Below are positions 13,207-40,034 of a DNA stretch of 64,000 bases, one piece after another. A program made the position numbers and the translations under genes. The DNA is from Cardiobacteriaceae bacterium TAE3-ERU3 (GTDB lineage Bacteria > Pseudomonadota > Gammaproteobacteria > Cardiobacteriales > Cardiobacteriaceae). The DNA is taken from contig JAHUUI010000005.1 of assembly GCA_019218315.1 (NCBI GenBank), positions 62,001-126,000 of the forward strand, written 5' to 3'. Every line of letters starts with the position of its first letter. Positions within the stretch are counted from its first letter, which is position 1. Under the pieces are notes generated by a model. That model was not told the DNA's origin. It saw only the letters and a list, made by a program, of their open reading frames with translations, and did not search any database.

Positions 13207-13280
13207 AAAAAAAAGCCCCAAGCAAACGCTTGAGGCAAATCATCATGAGGCAATGTGACAGATTGCTTTCGCGCTCCATC
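13207..13280 (-). ncRNA. Predicted RyhB-like iron-responsive small RNA
   Basis: This region has the parts of a small-RNA gene. A promoter with an overlapping Fur-like box (13284-13315) precedes a predicted start near 13280. The RNA is about 74 nt and ends in a stem (13215-13223 with 13228-13236, one mismatch, 4-nt loop) followed by eight U (A run 13207-13214). The body contains GAAAGCA, then TCACATTGC followed by CTC. These are in the same order and near-identical to the conserved pairing core of E. coli RyhB. Two TTGCCTCA modules (complement of 13246-13253 and within 13229-13239) match the sdhC Shine-Dalgarno region. There is no ORF. The alternative reading is a plain 3' UTR terminator of the oxidoreductase gene upstream, but that would not explain the promoter, Fur box or RyhB-like core. 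Confidence 0.68.
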
Positions 13281-13283
13281 AAG

Positions 13284-13315
13284 CGTAATGATAACGATTC
13301 TTAAAAATATTGCAA
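13284..13315 (-). promoter_or_regulatory. Promoter with overlapping Fur-box-like site for the small RNA
   Basis: On the minus strand the -35 box is TTGCAA (13310-13315) and the -10 box is TATCAT (13288-13293), spaced 16 bp. The 19 bp at 13284-13302 match the E. coli Fur consensus at 13 of 19 positions when read on the plus strand, and they cover the -10 box. Repression by Fe-Fur is therefore expected. The match count was made by eye. Confidence 0.55.
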
Positions 13316-13339: not shown

Positions 13340-15649
13340 TTACCCACTATTCTTTAGCAAATCAGCTTCGCTGCGCATAAAGCGTACAGCAATAAATTTA
13401 GACGTTGGCGTGTAACTTTTATCGCCAAAGCTCTCCAGCGGAACCAATGGATTAGTCTCGGGATAATACGCAGCACACTGCCCGGCAGGAATATCGTATG
13501 GCACAATTTCAAAACCGTGGATTGTTCGTGTACGCTGATCGCTCCACAGCGATGTAATATCGACGCGCTGTCCTTTTTCAAAACCTAACCGCTCGATATC
13601 ATTGGGGTTCATAAACACAATATCGCGCTTACCACGTATGCCGCGATAACGATCGTTATAGCTATAGACTGTGGTGTTGTACTGATCATGCGAGCGCAAC
13701 GTCTGCAAGATCAAATCAGGCTGTTCTTCATTATTTGGTACCGTGGTTTGCAGGATGCTTTCTGGCAACGGATTGGCTTTAAACACCGCCTTGCCACTAG
13801 CAGTCAACCAACGTCGTTCATCAGCAGCATTACCAAGGTGGAAACCACCAGGTTGCTGAACGCGCTTATTAAAGTCTTGGAAGCCATCAATAGTATCCTC
13901 AATCATATCTCGAATACGACTGTAGTCACCAATAGCCCAATCCCAATCTATCGGATGATTACCCAACGTTGCTTTCGCCATTCCAGCGATAATCGCTGGC
14001 TCTGATTTCAAGTGTTCAGATGCTGGTTCAAGCATACCGGAGGAAATATGTACCATCGAAAAAGTATCTTCAACCGTCACGCCCTGCCTTCCCTCACTCT
14101 GCATATCAAGCTCAGTACGGCCAAGGCAAGGCAAAATTAAAGCATCTTTGCCGTGTATCAAATGGCTGCGATTGAGCTTGGTCGCAATCTGCACCGTCAA
14201 ATCACATTGCTGCAAAGCAGCATGGGTCCGCGGGGTATCAGGTGTTGCCTGAGCAAAGTTACCACCAAGGCCAATAAAAACCTTTGACTCACCACGCTCC
14301 ATCGCACAAATCGCTTGCACGGTATTATGCCCATCATGACGCGGACTCTTGAACTTGAAGCGTTCATCCAACGCATCGAGCAGTTTTGCCGGTGGCGTTT
14401 CGTGAATACCAACGGTGCGATCACCTTGAACGTTACTGTGCCCACGCACCGGCGACAACCCGCAACCAGGCTTACCAACCTGACCACGTAACAATTGCAC
14501 GCTAACAATTTCCTGAATAATAGGCACAGAATGGCGATGCTGAGTGACGCCCATTGCCCAGCACATGATCACGCGCTCGGAATCACGATGCATAGCAGCA
14601 ATATTGCCAATCTCCTCTTTGCTCAGCCCTGACTGGGAGACGATATGTTCCCACTCGGTGGCATCTACCAATGCCAAATAATCATCCAGCCCTGTGGTAT
14701 GTTCTTCGAGAAATGCATGATCGAAAATAGGCTGACCTTCGCGTTCCCATTGCAAAAACCACTTCGCCACACCACGCATTACCGCCATATCACCACCCAA
14801 ATGTGGGTGATAAAAAGCAGTACTGGTTGGCTCAGAAGCATCGAAAATCATTTCCAGCTTTTCTTGCGGATTCTGAAAACGCTCCAAACCACGCTCTTTG
14901 AGCGGATTAAGGCAGATGACTTTCGCACCACGCTCAACGGCCTCACGCAATGGCTCAAGCATCCGTGGATGGTTCGTGCCGGGATTTTGCCCAATAACGA
15001 AAATACAATCAGCGTGATCAAAGTCCTGAATGACGACTGTACCCTTACCGACACCAATGGTTTCCTTCATGCCCGTACCACTTGCTTCGTGACACATATT
15101 TGAACAGTCCGGCATATTATTGGTGCCATAAGCGCGTGCAAAAAGCTGATACAGGAACGCTGCTTCATTACTCGCACGGCCTGAAGTATAAAACTCTACC
15201 GCGTCCGGGCTTTTTTGCGCTTTTAGATGCTTGGCAATTAATGCAAATGCATCATCCCATGTCGTCTCAACGTACTTATCCGTTGTCGCGTCATAACGCA
15301 TCGGATGGGTGATCCGGCCATTTTTCTCCAGCTCATGGTCACTTTGCTGCAACAACTCGGTAACCGTATGACGTGCAAAAAACTCCGGCTTGGCGAGGTT
15401 GGCGGTCGACTCCCAGTTAACCGCCTTTGCGCCATTTTCACAGAACTTGAATGCACCTTTTTCAGGTGCATCACCCCATGCACAGCCCGGACAATCAAAG
15501 CCAGCTGGCTGATTGGTCTTAAGCATGGCACGGGCATTTTGCAGGATTTTTTTACTTGCAACCCAGTTTTTCGCCACACTTTTGAGCGCACCCCAACCAC
15601 CAGCAGGCCCTTCATAATCATTGTATTTATCGTCAATTTTTCGTTTCAT
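13340..15649 (-). CDS. FdhF/YdeP-family molybdopterin-dependent oxidoreductase
   Basis: A 769-residue protein of the bis-MGD molybdoenzyme family, closest in pattern to YdeP-type formate-dehydrogenase-like proteins. The N-terminal cysteines are C53, C56 and C70 (FDCPGCAWGD and FKFCENGAKA). A NMCHEASG segment with Cys186 lies where formate dehydrogenases place their active-site residue. No selenocysteine codon or Tat signal is seen, so the enzyme is probably cytoplasmic. It follows an OFA transporter by 27 bp and fdhD by 1.7 kb, which argues for a formate or oxalate connection, but the substrate is unproven. The start codon lies in ATCATCATGA, complementary over 10 nt to the nearby small RNA. 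Confidence 0.85.
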   Translation of the reverse strand: MKRKIDDKYNDYEGPAGGWGALKSVAKNWVASKKILQNARAMLKTNQPAGFDCPGCAWGDAPEKGAFKFCENGAKAVNWESTANLAKPEFFARHTVTELLQQSDHELEKNGRITHPMRYDATTDKYVETTWDDAFALIAKHLKAQKSPDAVEFYTSGRASNEAAFLYQLFARAYGTNNMPDCSNMCHEASGTGMKETIGVGKGTVVIQDFDHADCIFVIGQNPGTNHPRMLEPLREAVERGAKVICLNPLKERGLERFQNPQEKLEMIFDASEPTSTAFYHPHLGGDMAVMRGVAKWFLQWEREGQPIFDHAFLEEHTTGLDDYLALVDATEWEHIVSQSGLSKEEIGNIAAMHRDSERVIMCWAMGVTQHRHSVPIIQEIVSVQLLRGQVGKPGCGLSPVRGHSNVQGDRTVGIHETPPAKLLDALDERFKFKSPRHDGHNTVQAICAMERGESKVFIGLGGNFAQATPDTPRTHAALQQCDLTVQIATKLNRSHLIHGKDALILPCLGRTELDMQSEGRQGVTVEDTFSMVHISSGMLEPASEHLKSEPAIIAGMAKATLGNHPIDWDWAIGDYSRIRDMIEDTIDGFQDFNKRVQQPGGFHLGNAADERRWLTASGKAVFKANPLPESILQTTVPNNEEQPDLILQTLRSHDQYNTTVYSYNDRYRGIRGKRDIVFMNPNDIERLGFEKGQRVDITSLWSDQRTRTIHGFEIVPYDIPAGQCAAYYPETNPLVPLESFGDKSYTPTSKFIAVRFMRSEADLLKNSG

Positions 15650-22630: not shown

Positions 22631-22687
22631 TCACGTGTAAAACTGATACAAGCGCCAGCCTTTTTGGCACCTTGTGACACAAGACTT

Positions 22688-22698
22688 CTTGAGGCAAA
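22688..22698 (+). promoter_or_regulatory. sdhC Shine-Dalgarno region, predicted small-RNA target
   Basis: CTTGAGGCAAA contains the GAGG ribosome-binding site 8 bp before the sdhC ATG. The same 11 bases occur on the plus strand at 13229-13239, so the minus-strand small RNA predicted there is perfectly complementary. A second copy of its inner 8 bases, TGAGGCAA, lies at 13246-13253 in a part of the RNA that should be unpaired. Pairing would occlude the ribosome-binding site. Confidence 0.6.
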
Positions 22699-22701
22699 AC
22701 A

Positions 22702-23082
22702 ATGCAACAACAAAATCGACCCTTATCGCCGCATTTGCAGGTTTATCGCCCGCAATTTACGTCTATTATGTCCATATTGCACCGCGCCACTGGTGTTACA
22801 AGCGCAATGGGATTGCTGCTGATTACATGGTGGTTAGCGATGACCGCGACAGGCAGCGACAGCTGGCACACAGCCAATAGCTTATTCGCCAACCCATTTG
22901 TCGTACTCATTTTATTCTTTTGGTCTGGCGCACTGATTTATCACCTCTGTAATGGTATTCGCCACCTAACATGGGATACAGGCAAATGCCTAACCATCGC
23001 AGAGTCGCGCAAAACAGCACGCATCGTCCAAATCGCAACTGTCATTATTACAGTCGCGCTGTGGATTGGCATTTGGTGGTAA
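22702..23082 (+). CDS. sdhC: Succinate dehydrogenase cytochrome b556 subunit
   Basis: A 126-residue membrane anchor with three helices. The quinone-site segment SILHRATG (Ser24, Arg28) and the heme-ligand region YHLCNGIRHLTWD (His81 as ligand) are both present. With SdhD it binds heme b and ubiquinone and fixes SdhAB to the inner membrane. GAGG lies 8 bp before the ATG and coincides with the predicted small-RNA pairing site. sdhD begins 9 bp after the stop. Confidence 0.96.
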   Translation: MQQQNRPLSPHLQVYRPQFTSIMSILHRATGVTSAMGLLLITWWLAMTATGSDSWHTANSLFANPFVVLILFFWSGALIYHLCNGIRHLTWDTGKCLTIAESRKTARIVQIATVIITVALWIGIWW

Positions 23083-23091
23083 GGAGCAGAC

Positions 23092-23475
23092 ATGAGCATA
23101 CTTAACGAACTCAAAAAAGCCAAAGGCCTTGGTTCTGGCCATAACGGAACGCACCACTTTATCGTCCAGCGCGTCAGTGCCGTTATCCTCATCCCGCTGG
23201 TACTTTATTTCCTCTACAGCATCGTACGTATCACCGGCGCACACGACTATCAAGCCGTACAAGCGTGGTTTGCCAACCCGATCAACAGTGCTTTAGTACT
23301 CGCATTCATGATTACCGGCTTTTACCACGCTGCTCTCGGCGTACAAGTCGTCATCGAAGACTACGTACATCACGAACAAATCAAATGGCTTTCGCTTATT
23401 GCCGTACGCGGCGTCTGCCTGATCGGCGCACTCATTGCCATTACCTCTATTCTGAGCCTCGGCCTCGCCCGATAA
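23092..23475 (+). CDS. sdhD: Succinate dehydrogenase membrane anchor subunit
   Basis: A 127-residue three-helix anchor. It carries HHFIVQRVSAVILIP at the start of helix 1 and FYHAALGVQVVIEDY in helix 2, where the Asp-Tyr pair matches the quinone-site residues known from E. coli. It pairs with SdhC around heme b. A GGAG site precedes the ATG, and sdhA follows 12 bp after the stop. Confidence 0.94.
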   Translation: MSILNELKKAKGLGSGHNGTHHFIVQRVSAVILIPLVLYFLYSIVRITGAHDYQAVQAWFANPINSALVLAFMITGFYHAALGVQVVIEDYVHHEQIKWLSLIAVRGVCLIGALIAITSILSLGLAR

Positions 23476-23487
23476 AAGGACAGCAAC

Positions 23488-25278
23488 ATGACACAACCAT
23501 ACAAAATTCATCACCACACTTATGACGTCGTCGTGGTCGGCGCTGGCGGCGCTGGATTGCGCGCCACCTTCGGCATGGCACTTGAAGGCCTGAAAACAGC
23601 CTGCGTCACCAAAGTATTCCCTACTCGTTCACACACCGTTGCAGCACAGGGCGGTATCGCAGCCGCACTCGGCAATATGGGTGAAGACAAATGGCAATGG
23701 CACTTCTACGACACAGTTAAAGGCTCAGACTGGCTCGGCGACCAAGACGCCATCGCCTATATGTGCCGTGAGGCAATTCCAGCCATTATCGAGCTTGAGC
23801 ACTATGGCGTACCGTTCTCACGTAACGACAAAGGCCAGATTTACCAGCGTCCATTTGGTGGCATGACCACGCACTTCGGCGAAGGCCAAGCTGAGCGTAC
23901 CTGCGCTGCTGCTGACCGTACCGGTCACGCCATTTTGCACACCCTGTATCAGCAAGCACTGCGTAACCACGCTGAGTTCTACATTGAATACTTCGCAACT
24001 GACCTGCTTATGGGTGAAGACGGCGATTGCCGTGGCGTCCTCGCGCTCGACCTTTCATCAGGTGAACTACACGTCTTCAACGCACAAATGGTCGTTCTCG
24101 CGACCGGCGGTTATGGTCGTGCATGGCAGTCTTGTACTTCTGCACATACCTGTACCGGTGACGGCAACGGCATGGTGCTGCGCGCAGGTCTCGCTCTGCA
24201 AGACGTTGAATTTACCCAATTCCACCCAACCGGCATCTACGGCTCAGGCTGCTTGATGACAGAAGGTTGCCGTGGTGAAGGTGGCTACCTGACCAACAGT
24301 GAAGGTGAGCGTTTCATGGAACGCTACGCACCAAACGCCAAAGACCTCGCCTCGCGCGACGTCGTATCCCGTGCAGAAGCAATCGAAATCCGTGAAGGAC
24401 GTGGCGTTGGCAAGCACAAAGACCACATCTACTTACACCTTGAGCACCTCGGTGCAGACGTCATCAATAAGCGCCTGCCAGGTATCGCTGAAACAGCGCG
24501 CATTTTTGCCGGCGTTGACGTCACCAAAGAGCCAAGCCCAATTCTGCCTACAGTTCACTACAACATGGGCGGCATCCCGACTAACTATCACGGCGAAGTC
24601 GTACAGCTCAAAGATGGCGACCCGGATTACGTCGTGCCTGGTTTGATGGCAATTGGTGAAGCTGGTTGTGTATCCGTACACGGCGCAAACCGCCTTGGCT
24701 CTAACTCACTGCTTGACCTCGTCGTCTTTGGTCGCGCCGCTGCGCACCGTGCTCGCGATATTATCAAGCCAAACAGCAAGCCAGCTCCAATTCCAGCTGC
24801 AGAACTTGAAAAAGCCCTTGGCCGCTTTGCTCAAATTCATAACGCAAATGGCGACATCGGCACTGCGGAAATTCGCGACAGAATGCAACGCGATATGCAG
24901 GCACACGCAGCAGTATTCCGCACCAGTGAAAGCCTCATCGAAGGCGTTGATAAAATCGACAAAATTTATCACAGCTTTGAGAACGTCCGCATCAAAGACA
25001 AGAGCCTCAACTGGAATACTGATCTCGTCGAAACCTTCGAGCTTGCCAACCTGCTCGCCTGTGCGCAAGTTTCTATCGTTGCGGCTGAAAACCGCAAGGA
25101 AAGCCGCGGTGGTCACGCACACGAGGACTATCCGGATCGCGATGACAAGAACTGGATGAAACACACACTCACGTGGCTCGACGAAGATGGCAAAGTAACC
25201 ATCGACTACCGCCCTGTCCACGATTTCACCGGCACCGATGAAGTCGAATACGTCAAGCCGAAAAAACGCGTGTACTAA
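23488..25278 (+). CDS. sdhA: Succinate dehydrogenase flavoprotein subunit
   Basis: A 596-residue subunit that oxidises succinate to fumarate with covalently bound FAD. The dinucleotide-binding motif [15 protein letters not shown] and the flavin-linked histidine in [11 protein letters not shown] are visible, as are [21 protein letters not shown] and the C-terminal [12 protein letters not shown]. Flavin attachment is normally assisted by SdhE (32227) and later steps by SDHAF4; both factors are encoded in this window. Confidence 0.98.
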
Positions 25279-25292
25279 GGAGCAACATCATC

Positions 25293-26072
25293 ATGGCAGA
25301 ATTTAAACTCCCAGCCAATTCCACAATAAAAAAAGGCAAACACTACCCAGCCCCAGCCGGTGCGACCAACGTCAAGACATTCAAAATCTACCGTTGGGAC
25401 CCGGGTGATGGCGAAAACCCACGTACCGACACCTATGAAATCGATCTAGATGATTGTGGGCCAATGGTGCTTGATGCACTGATTAAAATCAAAAATGAAA
25501 TTGACAGCACCCTGACCTTCCGTCGCTCTTGCCGTGAAGGCATCTGCGGTTCGTGCGCAATGAACATTGACGGCACCAACACGCTTGCGTGCACCAAGGC
25601 CATTGATGACGTTAAAAAAGGCGTCAACATCTACCCATTGCCGCACATGCATATCGTCAAAGACCTCGTGCCTGACCTGACCCACTTCTACGCCCAGCAC
25701 GCCTCAATCAAGCCGTGGTTGCAAACCGAAACCCCGGCACCTGAGCGCGAACGCCTGCAAAGTGAAGAAGAGCGCGCCAAGCTTGACGGACTTTACGAGT
25801 GCATCCTCTGCGCCTGCTGCTCGACTTCGTGCCCAAGCTACTGGTGGAATGGTGACAAATATCTCGGCCCTGCCATCCTACTGCAAGCCAACCGTTGGAT
25901 TCAGGACAGCCGCGATGAAGCGACTGCCGAGCGTCTGGACTTCTTGGAAGACAGCTTCAAGCTCTACCGCTGCCACACCATCATGAACTGTACCAATACT
26001 TGCCCGAAAGGCCTGAACCCGGCAAAAGCCATTGCTGAAATCAAGCAAAAGCTGGTCGAGCGTCAAGTGTAA
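25293..26072 (+). CDS. sdhB: Succinate dehydrogenase iron-sulfur subunit
   Basis: A 259-residue subunit with the three cluster motifs in order. The 2Fe-2S set is [16 protein letters not shown] and its following Cys, the 4Fe-4S set is [16 protein letters not shown], and the 3Fe-4S set is [17 protein letters not shown]. It passes electrons from SdhA to ubiquinone in SdhCD. An AGGAG site precedes the start. The operon ends at a strong hairpin 16 bp after the stop. Confidence 0.98.
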
Positions 26073-26131: not shown

Positions 26132-26551
26132 TTATTCGCGAATCAACTTGTATAACGCTGGGGTGAATTTTAAACCTTCAACCGGACGAACACCCTGCTC
26201 TTTCAAATACTGCTTCATATTTTCTGACGCAGTCATAAAGTCTTGCGGTGATGCCCAAACAGCGACATTAATCAGCTCAAAAGTCGCATCATCTTTCAGA
26301 GACTGATGCAGCTTGGTTGAAATATAGCCGGGCTGTGTCTTCAAGAAATCACGGCAAATTTCCCAAAATGCGATCGATTCATCCAGCTTGTCGGCCGGTA
26401 CTTCAAAAGGGTTAATCAGTACAACTTCTGTCGCATTCACTTGCTCTGCTTGAGTGTCCATCTTTTCTCCTGACTGTGCATAACTATTCGCAGCCACTAA
26501 AGAGCAAACAAACCCAAGTGACAGCATCAATGTTTTTAAAGTGTTTTTCAC
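26132..26551 (-). CDS. Exported ABM-like (dimeric alpha/beta barrel) protein
   Basis: A 139-residue protein with a signal peptide (MKNTLKTLMLSLGFVCSLVA, cleavage probably after SYA). A mature domain of about 100 residues follows, with the antibiotic-biosynthesis-monooxygenase pattern: INPFEVPADKLDESIAFW, then QPGYISTKLHQSL, FELINVAVWASPQDF and a final strand. The frame extends to a GTG at 26563, but a TGGAG site sits just before the GTG at 26551, giving a standard signal peptide. Function is unknown; periplasmic location is inferred from the signal peptide. Confidence 0.65.
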   Translation of the reverse strand: MKNTLKTLMLSLGFVCSLVAANSYAQSGEKMDTQAEQVNATEVVLINPFEVPADKLDESIAFWEICRDFLKTQPGYISTKLHQSLKDDATFELINVAVWASPQDFMTASENMKQYLKEQGVRPVEGLKFTPALYKLIRE

Positions 26552-26821
26552 TATTTTCTCCACATATTATTCGATAAATGAACGATTAGTATAACGCTTG
26601 TAGCTTCGATAAAACTAAAGCTTTAGCCTCAAAAAGTGGATTAATTTGGTAACCAGTTGTCATTAATAAACATTATTTTTCCTCTTTTGCCCTACTTAAA
26701 TGACCAGCAATACAACATTTCCGCTCTACTTTCTTCCCCTAACGCTACTTTTTATATGCAGCAAAAGCCAATCTCTTTCGTAAATGAATTAGACTACCCG
26801 TTTTAATTATCAGGATTGAAC

Positions 26822-27304
26822 ATGAGCACTATTGATAAACACAGCGTCGTCAGCTTTCACTACACTTTACGTGATGACGAAGGCAACATCCTCGACCAAT
26901 CCGAGCAGCACCCGCTGACTTACCTCCACGGCAACGGCGCCATCATTCCCGGCCTTGAAAAGGCACTCGACGGCAAAGCAGTTGGTGATCAATTCACCAT
27001 CACCATCGAGCCTCAAGATGCTTATGGCGAGCACCATGCAGATGGCGTCAACACCGTACCGCGTGAGCAGTTTAAAGGCGTTGATAAAATCGAGCCGGGC
27101 ATGCAGTTTGAAGCGAACTCAGGTGAGCAAACCATGCTGGTCACCGTTACCGAAGTCAACGACGACACCGTCACCATCGATGCCAACCACCCTCTCGCTG
27201 GCAAACGCCTGACTTTCGACATTAACGTCACCGAAGTACGCAATGCCACAGCCGAAGAAATCAGCCATGGCCACGTCCACGGTGCTGGTGGCGTACATCA
27301 CTAG
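26822..27304 (+). CDS. slyD: FKBP-type peptidyl-prolyl isomerase, SlyD-like
   Basis: A 160-residue isomerase. The FKBP half-domains flank an inserted IF domain (about residues 70-130), with LTYLHGNGAIIPGLEKAL and EPQDAYGEH as key segments. The C terminus is histidine-rich (HGHVHGAGGVHH), like the metal-binding tails of SlyD but shorter. SlyD acts as a cytoplasmic folding helper and nickel carrier. No nickel-enzyme genes are nearby. The ATG at 26822 was preferred over an upstream TTG. Confidence 0.88.
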   Translation: MSTIDKHSVVSFHYTLRDDEGNILDQSEQHPLTYLHGNGAIIPGLEKALDGKAVGDQFTITIEPQDAYGEHHADGVNTVPREQFKGVDKIEPGMQFEANSGEQTMLVTVTEVNDDTVTIDANHPLAGKRLTFDINVTEVRNATAEEISHGHVHGAGGVHH

Positions 27305-39987: not shown

Positions 39988-40034
39988 GTTATTTACACAA
40001 AACAATAATATAACATTCATCATAAGGCTTGATT

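Follow-up and report, generated by a model that had tools for sequence, protein, structure and literature searches.

What does the interval separating ackA from the YdeP-type oxidoreductase gene encode in this 64,000-nucleotide stretch of a Cardiobacteriaceae genome (hereafter the window)? A sequence-only reading had proposed that the interval holds a candidate Fur-controlled homologue of the small RNA RyhB. The individual signals that it described were recovered. The -35 and -10 boxes, their 16-bp spacing and the Fur-box match at 13 of 19 positions are all present on the minus strand (the 13/19 match lies in frame 13284-13302, and the best frame for the motif derived from the family is 13287-13305). 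The start, which had been placed near 13280 with a terminator bearing eight U about 74 nt further on, is predicted at ~13281, with the U8 run ending at 13207, and GAAAGCA and TCACATTGC-CTC are both found within the RNA of the window. The predicted locus is laid out as follows.

13310 to 13315, minus strand: -35 element TTGCAA, from a motif scan, separated from the -10 element by a 16-bp spacer
13288 to 13293, minus strand: -10 element TATCAT, from a motif scan
13284 to 13305, no strand assigned: Fur-box-like operator covering the -10 element, a candidate site by sequence match
13207 to 13281, minus strand: predicted sRNA of ~75 nt, its start placed from the -10 element
13256 to 13281, minus strand: 5' hairpin, its 3' arm formed by the first part of the invariant core
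13238 to 13261, minus strand: invariant core CTGTCACATTGCCTCATGATGATT, 24 nt, identical in 11 of 11 copies
13207 to 13236, minus strand: intrinsic terminator, a 9-pair stem (13236-13215) followed by U8

The core is predicted to be mostly single-stranded and to serve as the target-pairing region. A duplicated TTGCCTCA module, part of the original proposal, did not survive inspection: the second one forms the 5' side of the terminator stem and, in the other copy carried by this genome, reads TTACCCCGA.

Single-sequence scans of 1.2 kb returned two promoter sites (2.4 expected from shuffles) and two terminator sites (1.4 expected), and 442 Fur-box sites matching at least 13 of 19 positions were counted in 1.26 Mb of the window's genome. 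The promoter, terminator and 13/19 Fur match of one sequence alone are no better than chance, and the element was judged real because it is conserved across copies, not from these signals.

Using a covariance model, the sRNA was detected in 10 of 12 Cardiobacteriaceae genomes as 11 copies, two of them in the window's genome. In a DNA search of 57 genomes the second of these two (G000:C1:477721-477814, on a different contig) showed 88% identity, and the other genome of the window's genus contained a copy with 90% identity. A common plan of promoter, Fur site, 5' hairpin, invariant CTGTCACATTGCCTCATGATGATT and terminator runs through all copies: the -35 element is TTGNNN and the -10 element TANNAT in every one of the 11 promoters, a 16-bp spacer is peculiar to the window copy, the other ten having 17 bp, and the predicted RNAs are 67-75 nt long with a U-run of 6-9. 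Terminator stems have diverged strongly in sequence with their complementarity kept, and changes in the 5' arm of the 5' hairpin mostly keep pairs (Y opposite G, R opposite U). The lowest-energy fold of the 5' hairpin region pairs differently in G010 and G006, and an RNAalifold consensus fold of a MAFFT alignment was left out of the evidence because it misplaced this hairpin. Judged by these features, the element appears to be a conserved discrete unit with its own promoter and intrinsic terminator in all 11 copies. G010 has a tandem duplication in the 5' hairpin, where the 3' arm occurs twice, TCTGTCTCTGTC (L036, 2993-3012, just upstream of the core); the doubled arm permits two alternative hairpins, and in one of these the entire core stays free.

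Conservation in relatives, which the original proposal had named as a test, was found for the RNA itself, whereas the YdeP-ackA context mostly differs: apart from the window copy, ackA lies downstream only in G010, which belongs to another genus, and the remaining copies adjoin unrelated genes (ubiK-like, suhB-like, NhaC-like transporter) or opposite-strand genes. This bears on whether the element could be a cis-acting leader or attenuator of the gene downstream (ackA in the window) rather than a free RNA. Its position upstream of ackA on the same strand, seen again in G010, is what such a leader would look like. However, the differing gene contexts speak for a unit that acts in trans, each copy is closed by its terminator, and the invariant core is predicted to pair with the start regions of distant iron-enzyme genes; we consider a leader most improbable.

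Outside the family the sRNA was not encountered. The covariance model matched none of 20 other genomes of the order and, in an even class-wide sample of 274 genomes, the window's genus only; weak DNA matches in other families of the order were rejected, having no covariance-model match there. An exact scan for 21 nt of the core in the genomes of 84,980 species gave matches in Cardiobacteriaceae only (Cardiobacterium hominis, C. valvarum, Rappaport israeli and MAGs). Within the family, the sRNA was not found in G011 (86% complete) or in G005 (1.5 Mb). The latter also gave no matches to acnA, sdhB, ccoN, qNor or TonB receptors, and the absence of the sRNA there fits a loss together with its targets.

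Fur is encoded in all 12 family genomes. A Fur motif was learned by a palindromic search of the regions upstream of 29 TonB-receptor genes of the family, with no sRNA sequence included. The motif obtained de novo, ATGAtAATnATTaTCAT, is the canonical Fur box (log-likelihood 80 versus ~31 on shuffled sequence). It placed the sRNA promoters, 11 out of 11, within the top 0.26-0.61% of upstream windows, and in each the best match falls at the same place, over the -10 element. Moreover, both sRNA copies of the window's genome are among the 17 best sites in 1.26 Mb. A Fur operator at the sRNA promoter, as the sequence-only reading had suggested, is well supported at the sequence level.

Several further loci carry strong motif matches. 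In the window, positions 26662-26680 (score 15.2) lie between a gene for a monooxygenase-like small secreted protein (26132-26563, minus strand) and an FKBP/SlyD-like gene (26816-27304, plus strand), and possibly mark another Fur-regulated gene. Two genes for DUF4198-type or similar periplasmic proteins (L093:14187-14924 and L086:2234-2965) stand beside top Fur-motif sites, one adjoining katG and the other facing away from a TonB receptor gene, and both resemble iron-regulon members. For a 118-aa protein that lacks a Pfam match (L098:3624-3977), a top Fur-motif site upstream is combined with predicted pairing of the sRNA over the start codon.

Candidate targets were ranked by scoring local stacking of the core on the 75-nt start regions of 1083 ORFs, covering about half of the genome (~1.26 Mb, window included) with a simple duplex model that leaves accessibility out. 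This local stack model was used in place of a ViennaRNA duplex scan, which allowed long bulges. Iron or heme proteins, assigned by Pfam, accounted for 10 of the 40 top predicted targets versus 1 of 40 random lower-ranked genes (one-sided Fisher p 0.0035), the single control being a protein with a Cas4-type domain. The set comprises aconitase, a quinol-type NO reductase, NnrS, KatG, a di-haem cytochrome c peroxidase, class I fumarase, a cytochrome c, cytochrome b561, SdhB and the iron enzyme LuxS; a UbiA-family protein resembling haem O synthase was left out of the count. Predicted pairing sites fall on the Shine-Dalgarno (SD) sequence and start codon, as in acnA (GAGGCAATaTGAC), qNor (ATGAGGCAATcaTGA) and sodB (CATGAGGCAA). 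The window, which carries sdhCDAB (22702-26072), contains these predicted target sites.

22687 to 22697, plus strand: site TCtTGAGGCAA at the RBS of sdhC, first gene of sdhCDAB; pairing kept in relatives
25287 to 25299, plus strand: site ATCATCATGGCAG over the start codon of sdhB; in relatives this pairing is not generally kept
40017 to 40028, plus strand: site at the RBS of the cytochrome b561 gene (gene start 40035)

The core is therefore predicted to base-pair with mRNAs of iron-using proteins, and the iron-sparing role assigned to the RNA by the sequence-only reading is borne out to the extent that its predicted targets are iron and heme enzymes. The neighbouring YdeP-type oxidoreductase gene (13340-15649) shows moderate complementarity to the core over its own start codon (ATCATCATGAaaCGA, -16.6), so it may perhaps be a target as well.

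Pairing in relatives was compared with a background of 181 start regions taken from the other genomes of the family; because these genomes are related, the p values are not independent. Orthologues of acnA pair at or below -17.2 in 4 of 4 cases (p 5e-4) and those of ccoN at or below -15.8 in 7 of 7 (p 1e-5), while qNor orthologues also exceed the background (p 1e-4). For sdhC the excess holds across six relatives (p 9e-4), with the strongest pairing, -27.5 kcal/mol, in G010 (GAGGCAATGTGAT). The sdhD and sdhA genes of the same operons show no excess over this background (p 0.13 and p 0.15, respectively) and so provide an internal control. Against the same 181 regions, the sdhB and sodB pairing present in the window's genome is not conserved across relatives, and class I fumarase (fumA) has a match in the window's genome only among the family genomes. 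When cores were permuted with CCTC held fixed, 0 of 200 reached the observed mean over five genes, which means that anti-SD complementarity does not explain the whole effect. The real core has a slight advantage over permuted ones with background genes too (2 of 60 permutations were as good), and general complementarity to start regions thus accounts for part of the signal. In Rappaport israeli (G006), the quinol NO reductase gene consists of two overlapping pieces in different frames (L188 and L189; G006:C12:16274-18501), the second with two TGA stops, indicating a split or frameshifted gene.

Could the RNA be a conserved trans-acting sRNA under a different regulator, one responding for example to respiration or NO stress, with its Fur-box likeness produced by an AT-rich promoter and its targets reflecting respiration rather than iron? 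The respiratory or NO-related character of ccoN, qNor, NnrS, b561 and Ccp is compatible with this, and AT-rich -10 regions do score on an AT-rich motif. However, the upstream windows against which the promoters were ranked contain promoters themselves, and all 11 stand in their top 0.6%; moreover, the predicted targets include acnA, sodB, katG, fumA and sdhC, the classical iron-sparing set. We regard control by another regulator as quite improbable.

Taken together, the results make it highly likely that the locus is a gene for a trans-acting, Fur-repressed, iron-sparing sRNA that is specific to Cardiobacteriaceae and works like RyhB, and iron depletion very probably switches the RNA on. Sequence-level support comes from conservation, the promoter, the Fur-like operator, the terminator, the complementarity and its conservation, and the presence of fur and hfq; from these we infer transcription, Fur binding, Hfq dependence and repression. 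With iron in good supply, Fe-Fur would sit over the -10 region. Under iron shortage Fur would leave, allowing an RNA of 70-75 nt to be made with a 5' hairpin, an exposed core and a U-rich tail. The core (CACAUUGCCUCAUGAUGAUU) would then pair with GAGGCAA-type SD sequences and the adjoining AUG in mRNAs of iron-sulfur and heme enzymes: acnA, sdhC, ccoN and qNor, and in the window's genome also katG, Ccp, sodB, fumA and others. Occupation of the SD and AUG would block translation, the mRNA would be destabilised, probably through Hfq, and the reduced synthesis of iron enzymes would spare iron. Hfq-dependent action is true of RyhB but not of all Fur-repressed iron-sparing sRNAs. In the window's genome, hfq (G000:C2:161298-161501) encodes a product 82% identical to E. 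coli Hfq over 68 aa, and the U-tail fits the suggestion that the sRNA probably works with the help of Hfq.

The sequence-only reading had taken the RNA for a candidate RyhB homologue, but in a scan of all 11 copies none reached the threshold of any Rfam sRNA family. With the Rfam covariance model for RyhB (RF00057) the window copy reached 14.6 bits, the gathering cut-off being 55, and the other ten copies gave no match; with PrrF (RF00444) the window copy scored 21.7 bits against 90. Sub-threshold matches to SorY, a betaproteobacterial toxic sRNA and NsiR1 were rejected, as they mainly match the terminator.

A true, diverged RyhB orthologue, related by common descent rather than an analogue, would have several points in its favour. 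The window copy and E. coli RyhB contain GAAAGCA and UCACAUUGCYUC in the same order, their local alignment shows a nominal similarity (shuffle p 0.003-0.012), the presumed regulator is the same and the predicted targets overlap. However, SorY, the toxic sRNA and PrrF all score higher than RyhB in the same Rfam scan, and the conserved core, taken on its own, resembles E. coli RyhB weakly (shuffle p 0.016-0.06). Of the RyhB-like features cited in the original proposal, GAAAGCA is confined to the window's genus (G000 and G001) and is missing elsewhere in the family, and the duplicated TTGCCTCA is not conserved either. The family's own model detected no copies in the order's other families or in ~270 genomes of the class, and so no sequences bridge to RyhB. 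We consider descent from a common RyhB ancestor unlikely and, given a predicted RyhB-like function with sub-threshold family scores, assign the sRNA to the functional class and not to the RyhB family.

A broader reading, which we offer tentatively and hold at a little under an even chance, is that the sRNA family originated in Cardiobacteriaceae, separately from RyhB, and came by convergence to have the same regulator and targets and a comparable CACAUUGC seed, with a core spanning the SD and start codon and with iron tied to NO handling (qNor, NnrS), a high-affinity oxidase (ccoN) and LuxS. The Cardiobacteriaceae are oral and opportunistic bacteria of humans and animals. No iron-responsive sRNA of this family was found in the open-licence papers searched, and Rfam contains no family matching the one described here. 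The 24-nt core, the covariance model and the ranked target list are directly testable. The sRNA would add another case to the repeated, apparently independent rise of Fur-repressed iron-sparing RNAs (RyhB, PrrF, NrrF, HrrF, BrrF), with a predicted pairing mode focused on Shine-Dalgarno sites.

Among known systems, RyhB of E. coli and its relatives resembles the Cardiobacteriaceae sRNA in its Fur-like operator, length below 100 nt, hairpins, seed with CACAUUGC and U-rich terminator, in targets that overlap those predicted here (sdhC, sodB, aconitase, fumarase) at the RBS and start codon, and in the presence of an hfq gene. Unlike RyhB, the Cardiobacteriaceae core continues CCUCAUGAUGAUU, the RNA is shorter, its gene context is different, it is confined to one family, and ccoN, qNor and katG are also predicted targets. 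PrrF1 and PrrF2 of Pseudomonas share with it two copies per genome, as in the window's genome, Fur-type control, and targets in the TCA cycle and oxidative stress (in part PMC7377471), whereas the Cardiobacteriaceae copies are on different contigs and not side by side. HrrF of Pasteurellaceae, ~97 nt long in a conserved pmbA-hpt context and with reported targets in molybdate uptake and deoxyribonucleotide synthesis, is set apart by this description in length, gene context and targets (PMC4144887). BrrF of Burkholderia is a low-iron sRNA without similarity to known ones that represses acnA, fumA, sdhA, sdhC, sodB and katB (PMC7377471). HrrF and BrrF are thus precedents for Fur-linked or low-iron sRNAs that lack similarity to RyhB (PMC4144887, PMC7377471).
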